Assembly (NCBI RefSeq): GCF_026586625.1
Contig: NZ_JAODIW010000006.1
Coordinates: 506,927-570,926, forward strand
Direction: 5' to 3'
Origin: Halobium salinum
Lineage (GTDB): Archaea; Halobacteriota; Halobacteria; Halobacteriales; Haloferacaceae
DNA length: 64,000 nucleotides
Positions 33,842 through 35,403 of the stretch are shown here, one piece after another; position 1 is the first letter of the stretch, and every line of letters begins with the position of its first letter. The notes below the pieces were generated by a model. That model made no database searches. It saw only the letters and a list, made by a program, of their open reading frames with translations, and was not told the DNA's origin. The position numbers were made by a program, and so were the translations under genes.

Positions 33842-34017
33842 GCCGGTGGCTGACGCATCGGGCTCGCACGGGAACGGCGATACCCGACCACCCGGCATGG
33901 GTGGGGCCCCTTCCGAGGGACGTAACCACCTCTCGGAACCGAGCGGTCCGAACATCCGAAACCCTCGAACCCTCGCCGAAACCCTCATACGCCGTCCGGA
34001 AAATCAGAAGGATAGAG
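33842..34017. other. Upstream region of the trpS leader
   Basis: It holds a dispersed-repeat segment (33893-33919; ATGGGTGGGGCCCCTTCCG core, related to 40891-40917). Further downstream a candidate promoter lies at 33977-33990: CGAAAC as BRE and CTCATAC as a TATA-like box. This would place transcription start near 34011-34018, at or just before the leader ATG. No protein gene is visible before 34018. Confidence 0.4.
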
Positions 34018-34095
34018 ATGCAGTCCGCTCCCTGGCGCTGGCGCTCGCACGCCTCCGGAGCGGACAGTCCCGTCGCCGTCGTCGCCGCGGCCTAA
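34018..34095 (+). CDS. Candidate Trp leader peptide (25 codons, W-R-W)
   Basis: ATG 34018 opens a 25-codon frame ending at TAA 34093-34095. The peptide begins MQSAPWRWRSH and ends in Ala/Val-rich VAVVAAA; Trp codons are at 34033-34035 and 34039-34041. Two tryptophans in 25 residues, just upstream of tryptophanyl-tRNA synthetase and inside hairpin-forming sequence, is the layout of an attenuator leader peptide. The start codon is at or near the predicted 5' end of the transcript. Translation would stall here when charged Trp-tRNA is low. The ORF's reality is inferred from context; it is too short to be conserved by family. Confidence 0.6.
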   Translation: MQSAPWRWRSHASGADSPVAVVAAA

Positions 34096-34158
34096 CCCGA
34101 CGCCGACGCGCCGGGCGCTCACTCGCTCCGTTCCTCGAACCGACCGACGAGCGCCAGC
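34023..34158 (+). promoter_or_regulatory. Alternative RNA structures of the trpS leader (attenuator-like)
   Basis: Stem 1: GTCCGCTCC (34023-34031) pairs perfectly with GGAGCGGAC (34057-34065) and holds the Trp codons in its 25-nt loop. Stem 2: GCTGGCGCTCG (34037-34047, inside that loop and overlapping the second Trp codon) pairs perfectly over 11 bp with CGAGCGCCAGC (34148-34158), ending 21 nt before the trpS ATG. A third helix, CGTCGCCGTCG/CGACGCCGACG (34071-34081, 34098-34108, one mismatch), brackets the leader stop codon. Stems 1 and 2 compete or form a pseudoknot, so ribosome position on the leader could switch trpS translation or transcription. Confidence 0.55.
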
Positions 34159-34179
34159 GACGCAGCTAACTCGACACTG

Positions 34180-35403
34180 ATGCAGAATCACGACGACACG
34201 ACGACAGCACCACCCGAGCACACCGAGAACGCAGCTACGGACCCCACGGACGACTTCACCGTCACCCCCTACGATATCGAGGGCGAGGTGGACTACAACC
34301 GCCTCCTCGACCGATTCGGCGCCGACCGACTCACGCCCGAGCAGGTCGCCCGGTTCTCCGCCCCGCCACACCGGCTCCTGCGCCGGGAGCGAATCTTCGC
34401 CGGGCGCGACGTGGACCGCTTTCTCGACGCCGCCGCGGCCGGCGAGGAGGTGTCGGTGGTCACCGGTATCGGCCCCTCCGGACCGATGCACGTCGGCCAC
34501 CTCTCGCAGTTCTACTTCGCGAAGCACCTGCAGGACGAGTTCGGCGCGCGCGTCTACATCCCGCTCTCGGACGACGAGAAACACCTGCTGAAGGACCTCA
34601 CGCTCGACGAGACGGCGACGCACCTCCGCGACAACCTGCGGGACCTGCTCGCGGTCGGCTTCGACCCCGAGTTGACCCGTATCGTCGTCGACACTGCCGA
34701 CGCCGACGCGCTGTACCCGACCGCAGTCAGGTTGGCGAAGGGGTTGACGCCCGCGACGGTCGAGGCGGTCTACGGCGACCCGGCGAACGTCGGCGTCGGC
34801 TTCTACCCGGCGATGCAGGCGACGCACCTTCTCCTGCCCCAGTTGGTCCACGGCGCCCACCCGACGGCGGTGCCCGTGGCGGTCGACCAGGACCCGCACG
34901 TTCGGGTGTGTCGAGACCTCGCCGCGAAGGCGCGCTTCGACGTGGAGAAGCCCGGCGCGCTGCTCTCGAAGTTCCTCCCCCGGCTCGGCGGCGGTGGCGG
35001 GAAGATGAGTTCGAGCGAGGACGTCCCGGGGATTCTCCTCTCCGACGACCGCGAGACGGTCCACGAGAAGGTACAGCGACACGCCTTCTCCGGCGGACAG
35101 GACGACTTGGAGGCCCACCGGGAACTGGGCGGGAACCCCGAGGTCGACGTGGCCTACCAGCTTCTGTACGCCTTCTTCGAGACGGACGACGCGGTGCTGG
35201 AGCGCCTCGCCCGCGAGTACCGCGCCGGCGACCTCCTCTCGGGGGAGTTGAAGACCTACGCGGCCGACCGGATTTCGGACTTCCTCGAAGCCCACCGGGA
35301 GCGCCGACCAGCGGACGGCCGCGACGAGCTTCGCGAGGCGGTCGCGTCGTACCGACTGCGCGAGGACGAACGCCGGCGTCTGCGACACGACCCGCTCTCC
35401 TGA
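34180..35403 (+). CDS. trpS: Tryptophanyl-tRNA synthetase
   Basis: The 407-residue class I synthetase attaches tryptophan to tRNA-Trp. Catalytic signatures are GPSGPMHVGHL (HIGH-type) near residue 105 and GGGGKMSSSED (KMSKS-type) near residue 282. The archaeal/eukaryotic N-terminal extension is present (DFTVTPYDIEGEVDYNRLLDRFGADRL). It starts at ATG 34180, preceded by a 20-residue disordered Thr/Asp/Glu segment in the protein. A leader with a Trp-containing ORF and competing hairpins lies upstream, so expression is probably tied to tryptophan charging. Haloarchaea commonly carry two trpS paralogs; which one this is cannot be told here. Confidence 0.92.
   Translation: MQNHDDTTTAPPEHTENAATDPTDDFTVTPYDIEGEVDYNRLLDRFGADRLTPEQVARFSAPPHRLLRRERIFAGRDVDRFLDAAAAGEEVSVVTGIGPSGPMHVGHLSQFYFAKHLQDEFGARVYIPLSDDEKHLLKDLTLDETATHLRDNLRDLLAVGFDPELTRIVVDTADADALYPTAVRLAKGLTPATVEAVYGDPANVGVGFYPAMQATHLLLPQLVHGAHPTAVPVAVDQDPHVRVCRDLAAKARFDVEKPGALLSKFLPRLGGGGGKMSSSEDVPGILLSDDRETVHEKVQRHAFSGGQDDLEAHRELGGNPEVDVAYQLLYAFFETDDAVLERLAREYRAGDLLSGELKTYAADRISDFLEAHRERRPADGRDELREAVASYRLREDERRRLRHDPLS

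Follow-up and report, generated by a model that had tools for sequence, protein, structure and literature searches.

Does a short open reading frame with two Trp codons, lying just ahead of a tryptophanyl-tRNA synthetase (TrpRS) gene in the haloarchaeon Halobium salinum, control this gene in the manner of a bacterial leader peptide? Leader-peptide attenuation is textbook bacterial regulation and needs coupled transcription and translation, a coupling that is thought to occur in archaea. The window analysed here is the whole stretch of 64,000 nucleotides to which all positions refer, and an archaeal Trp leader-peptide attenuator had been proposed in it as a candidate ahead of trpS. The ORF on which the original prediction rests, with 25 codons, two of them Trp, at the predicted 5' end of the transcript, was found with all its elements in place. 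It occupies positions 34018–34095 of the forward strand, encodes MQSAPWRWRSHASGADSPVAVVAAA, ends with TAA, and carries the putative regulatory codons Trp-Arg-Trp (TGG CGC TGG) at 34033–34041, with the Trp codons at 34033–34035 and 34039–34041. The gene that follows (34180–35403, forward strand) encodes a tryptophan--tRNA ligase (NCBIfam NF008927.0, 505.5 bits for a cut-off of 478; Pfam PF00579). The source genome (14 contigs) encodes another TrpRS (G000:C11:19706-21325), which is 35% identical to this one. In Haloferax volcanii, the gene immediately after endA, which encodes the splicing endonuclease, is trpS1 (PMC7714728); hence, we take the gene at 34180–35403 to be the second enzyme, trpS2.

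We compared this region with that of other haloarchaea. The comparison proposed at the outset, for a conserved W-x-W ORF and covarying stems, returned both, in 31 of 31 orthologues and in a class-wide covariance model. All 31 orthologues have a leader of 15–30 codons with a W-x-W core ahead of trpS. Two hairpins accompany it on the forward strand, both anticipated, one as a 9-bp stem whose loop contains the Trp codons, the other as a stem around the leader stop. P1 (34023–34065) pairs 34023–34031 with 34057–34065 over 9 bp, enclosing the Trp codons in the loop. P2 (34066–34119) follows directly, and the leader stop codon is close to its apex. The covariance model was built from 30 of the 31 orthologue sequences, and its alignment was used instead of a plain MAFFT alignment, on which RNAalifold gave no useful structure and the P1 arms were misaligned. 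Changes on both sides occur in 7 of 10 family pairs of P1 (94.6% of cells paired) and in 9 of 11 pairs of the P2 main helix (88% of cells paired). Taking P1 and P2 together in the model-based alignment, 91.9% of the cells are paired, against 38–44% when the partners are slid, and both sides changed in 17 of 23 pairs. The pairing figure comes from an alignment itself fitted to the structure, and the independent test is the comparison of own with mismatched arms: among 56 non-redundant sequences, own arms beat the mismatched arms of other species both at P1 (z −12) and at P2 (z −13). Judged by these comparisons, P1 and P2 both covary. The folding energy of the source-genome stretch alone is unremarkable and not below that of shuffles (z −0.23), as one would expect if a chance short ORF had met GC-rich hairpins without function. 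This possibility is already contradicted by class-wide conservation and covariation, and we consider it practically excluded. The support for the element is thus comparative and not drawn from the folding energy of the source sequence, and on that support the element is far from chance.

Several patterns indicate that the leader is a coding sequence. Among 95 leaders, 82 have W-x-W, 86 have at least two Trp codons and all have at least one, the absence of Trp-free leaders being partly by construction, since our leader-picking script demanded a Trp. TGG triplets fall mostly in the leader frame (200/37/9 per reading frame). The distance between the P1 arms equals 2 modulo 3 in 85 of 95 sequences, and the reading frame is preserved through the P1 3' arm in 86. 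The loop lengths spread mostly over 20–41 nt and are dominated by 20, 23, 26, 29, 32, 35, 38 and 41. Because they change in steps of three, we conclude from this signature of coding selection that the leader ORF is translated. For annotators, this means that a short coding gene precedes these trpS genes. The leader stop codon lies inside P2 in most species and before P2 in a few; hence, an effect of the ribosome on P2 cannot be universal. At six loci (L183, L185, L071, L073, L096 and L100), the stop codon comes immediately behind the Trp codons, within the P1 loop, so that the ribosome would never get to P2.

The promoter places this ORF at the very start of the transcript. Base composition of the aligned leaders points to a BRE-like CGAAA (33977–33981) and a TATA-like TCATAC (33985–33990), i.e. 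a promoter at 33977–33990 of the forward strand. Across the family, BRE and TATA boxes are conserved 26–37 nt ahead of the leader start. When 94 leaders are aligned on their start, A peaks at −36 to −34 (BRE-like) and AT at −30 to −26 (TATA-like), where it reaches up to 88% against a background of about 35%. The boxes of the source genome are about 3 nt further upstream than these family positions. Since the boxes are conserved just before the leader start, the transcript is expected to open with the leader, its first nucleotide at or close to the ATG, which would make the leader ORF itself leaderless; this start is predicted from sequence alone. A start downstream of 34065 would have refuted the original prediction, and the predicted one is at the leader ATG instead.

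The distribution of the element links it to TrpRS. The covariance model had a single match in the source genome, this element (E 2.1e-21), and matches in 164 of the 391 genomes of the class (158 without six weak matches). Weak second matches near E 1e-4 were dismissed as coding-region noise. The element is found in 131 of the 136 genomes of the class with trpS2 (Fisher p 5e-69). The other five include three leaderless genes, one fragment and one case whose upstream stretch was not interpretable. At L178, L179 and L181, trpS2 lacks a leader and the promoter is apparently directly before the gene. Twenty-seven further genomes have the element without trpS2. In the genomes that we fetched, it then mostly precedes the other TrpRS type (31–35% identical), which was the only TrpRS found in the checked genomes with the element but no trpS2. 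Because the element also stands before this other, sole TrpRS type, it tracks the TrpRS function and not one gene. No other aminoacyl-tRNA synthetase was behind the element among the class-wide matches inspected, no match was listed among 393 genomes of the phylum outside the class, and the viral contigs searched held no relative of trpS2.

An element that follows TrpRS genes and displays UGG in a hairpin loop, where it could pair with the CCA anticodon, might also be a structured RNA that binds tRNA-Trp directly, as a T-box does, or the TrpRS protein in an autoregulatory loop, the ORF being incidental. The likeness to the T-box riboswitch of Firmicutes is that tRNA charging is sensed ahead of a synthetase gene. 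However, the T-box reads tRNA directly without an ORF, while the haloarchaeal leader is under coding selection; this speaks against a mechanism based on RNA reading alone. The start codon falls at the predicted transcription start, the Trp codons are in frame, the loop changes its length by threes and most leaders have at least two Trp codons, all of which is also at odds with direct binding. No Rfam family matched the element: the Trp_leader model gave nothing even at E up to 1, and the T-box model did not match either. We regard direct binding as very unlikely. Sensing of Trp by a translating ribosome, in general terms, is in our view highly probable.

How could a stalled ribosome change the output? 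Behind P2 there is a pyrimidine/T-rich, terminator-like tract (34120–34138, forward strand). In the family, T makes up 42% of it and A 2%, whereas the upstream background has 18% T; at least five T in 10 nt occur in 78% of the tracts, against 10% of the background. Several include T5C, a motif that ended 95% of the transcripts in a Haloferax reporter (PMC7237163). By its composition, the tract resembles Haloferax terminators; it is poor in T in the source genome, where the longest run is of two, and there are no termination data. The tract can pair with the 3' arm of P1 in an alternative helix, P3 (34056–34130, forward strand; 34056–34063 with 34123–34130), which excludes P1. Competing pairings had been proposed between the Trp-codon region and a segment close to trpS; a competing helix with family-wide support is indeed predicted, but its partners are the P1 3' arm and the tract. 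Own P3 pairs are better than mismatched ones (p 0.002, 56 non-redundant sequences), whereas for most other candidate alternative pairings they are not. Tracts with A for G occur only where the P1 3' arm has T for C (4 of 29 such arms versus 0 of 58 others, p 0.011). This swap rests on four sequences, two of which have near-identical elements and probably represent one event, and the p-values are not corrected for shared ancestry. A pairing like the 2:3 antiterminator of E. coli, between the P1 3' arm and the P2 5' half, was rejected (z +0.68).

We then folded 54 non-redundant sequences up to the tract. The free RNA forms on average 7.9 bp of P1 and 0.7 bp of P3, leaving 68% of the tract open. 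Without the part that a ribosome at the first Trp codon would cover, P3 reaches 8.2 bp and the tract is 40% open. Exposure of the tract is lower in this stalled RNA in 51 of the 54 sequences, and P3 is predicted in 52 of them once the ribosome on the Trp codons blocks P1. The first Trp codon is a median of 20 nt ahead of the P1 3' arm, which would thus stay free of the stalled ribosome. Real tracts beat shuffled ones for P3 (8.2 versus 6.9 bp, p 2.5e-9). Shuffled pyrimidine-rich tracts pair with the arm too, so P3 is partly a matter of composition. For example, the free RNA of Haloferax elongans has an 11-bp P1 and a T5C tract outside the main helices, while in its stalled RNA the tract is taken up by a P3 of 12 bp that stacks on P2 (z about −4.5 in both states). 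The P1 and P3 states are also the minimum-energy folds of the free and stalled RNA in the source genome; once the trpS-proximal region is transcribed, a third fold is about 2 kcal/mol better than P2 with P3. Computation thus depicts P1 and P3 as mutually exclusive helices, with the choice set by the position of the ribosome; P1 covaries strongly and P3 moderately.

These elements fit together in the following mechanism. Transcripts would begin at the leader ATG or beside it, so that ribosomes enter the leader ORF directly at the 5' end. With ample Trp-tRNA, the ribosome would clear the Trp codons and leave, P1 would form and occupy its 3' arm, and the tract behind P2 would remain single-stranded, so that transcription would end there, before trpS. 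When Trp-tRNA is scarce, the ribosome would stall at the Trp codons in the P1 loop and hold the P1 5' arm. The freed 3' arm would then form P3 with the tract, which would lengthen P2 and make the tract inaccessible to RNA polymerase with aCPSF1/FttA; trpS would be made, and starvation would raise TrpRS expression. We put the probability of this full statement (a tRNA-Trp-sensing attenuator with a P1/P3 toggle, a hidden tract and increased TrpRS) at about 0.68. Comparison shows the place of the promoter, selection on the leader as a coding sequence, the helices P1 and P2 and the association with TrpRS genes, and the exclusivity of P1 and P3 is supported by computation. Without transcript, ribosome-profiling, reporter or other cell data, it is an inference that transcription terminates at the tract, that control runs in this direction, that aCPSF1 takes part and that expression responds to Trp. 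The central claim of the original prediction is supported, as neither of the two conditions set to refute it applies: ORF and stems are conserved and covary, and the start is predicted at the leader ATG.

We prefer hiding of the tract over breaking of a terminator hairpin because archaeal termination relies on U-rich RNA with aCPSF1/FttA and needs no hairpin (PMC8716108, PMC8116511). Pairing cannot hide a T run inside the polymerase, so that the only possible target of P3 is a factor binding to emerged RNA. The output stage could nevertheless be the opposite: P2, or P2 extended by P3, would be the terminator, and P1 or a ribosome at the leader stop would prevent it. P2 is indeed a strong, GC-rich hairpin a few bases ahead of a T-rich tract, a structured terminator worked at 59% in Haloferax (PMC7237163), and in most species P2 would be opened by a ribosome sitting on the leader stop codon. 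Yet starvation would then lower TrpRS, which is wrong for homeostasis unless further steps intervene; moreover, a hairpin is not required for archaeal termination (PMC8716108) and some leaders end ahead of P2. This inverted output seems unlikely to us, without being negligible.

The region next to trpS raises a further alternative. The segment at 34148–34159 (forward strand) is complementary to the Trp-codon region at 34036–34047. This is the long-range helix of the original prediction: it is present and ends 21 nt before the trpS ATG (34180), with 12 perfect base pairs instead of 11. It is not conserved family-wide. The helix (P4) reaches at least 7 bp in 16 of 93 sequences against 13% of mismatched pairs, and the own-versus-cross energy is marginal (p 0.037); these complement-length and energy tests led us to reject P4 as a family feature and demote it to a lineage feature. 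The P2 3' half and the trpS-proximal region also score as a pair (p 0.0008), for which we have no explanation. An AGYGAC element occurs before trpS (34139–34179 and relatives) in 25 of 94 sequences for 2.6 expected, and is complementary to the TCRCT of the tract. Such pairings of the trpS-proximal segment with the Trp codons or the end of P2, together with the excess of AGYGAC, would suit a translational or RNA-stability control, in which stalling refolds the leader and changes trpS initiation or mRNA decay without any termination. But the trpS-proximal pairings are lineage-limited. The 20 nt ahead of trpS are A/C-rich and have a Shine-Dalgarno-like motif in only 2 of 95 sequences, which makes sequestration of the start site unlikely. 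We consider control at these levels quite improbable.

Tract hiding by a stalled ribosome, our preferred reading, has relatives in bacteria. As in attenuation of the trp operon (E. coli trpL type), there is a short leader ORF at the 5' end, with adjacent Trp codons, competing helices and, by inference, a Trp-related gene under control. In contrast, the haloarchaeal element would use archaeal machinery and a leaderless leader ORF, has no sequence relationship to trpL (no Rfam match), and its alternative helix would hide a T-rich tract, whereas trpL breaks a terminator hairpin. In Streptomyces coelicolor, an attenuator precedes trpRS1, an auxiliary TrpRS gene. Streptomyces avermitilis trpS2 also has a candidate attenuator upstream (PMC1262725). 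These Streptomyces attenuators share a Trp leader peptide and a second TrpRS gene with the element described here, but have a bacterial terminator/antiterminator layout and an unrelated leader. Our literature search did not find a leader-peptide attenuator in archaea, and a review of archaeal coupling does not mention one (PMC8116511); most subscription journals were outside the coverage, and this absence is not proof. We read the kind of mechanism as already known from bacteria, including candidates before auxiliary trpS in Streptomyces, and the archaeal case as apparently new. About 40% of the haloarchaeal genomes sampled contain this conserved element with its covarying stems, among them that of Haloferax mediterranei, a tractable species. 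If the mechanism is true, archaeal coupling and factor-dependent termination become directly testable. It remains an even bet that this is a widespread class of archaeal attenuators, independent of bacteria, in which a stalled ribosome shields a T-rich tract from the termination factor, which was recruited to GNAT and ABC exporter genes, and beside which a second, unrelated Trp leader arose before a third TrpRS of Haladaptatus.

Some occurrences lie in other contexts. On the megaplasmid pHME505 of Haloferax mediterranei (L193:2823-2953), leader and trpS2 are beside an integrase and a transposase, and the leader ORF is absent from the listed annotation. The P1/P2 element is found ahead of GNAT acetyltransferase genes at L166:1501-1620, L168:1501-1620 and L150:1501-1625; the leaders of the first two, MSAPNASAGRSRERTVRSAA and MSALSTFAVTSRERTVRSAA, have no Trp. 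At L165:1501-1629, the element has a one-Trp leader (MMSATGLGPVLWHGSTVADSALA) and the gene behind it encodes an ABC exporter; the genome has leader and trpS2 as well. Finally, Haladaptatus plasmids and genome G123 (L195:2424-2530, L196:1383-1490 and L197) encode a third TrpRS, which has its own unrelated, conserved leader of 17 amino acids (MFAATTAGGRFWPTTAH, MYPSATAGGRFWPTTAH and MYPSATAGGRFWPTAAQ). One Trp codon of this leader sits in the loop of a hairpin, and at L195 a GNAT gene comes directly after this third trpS.
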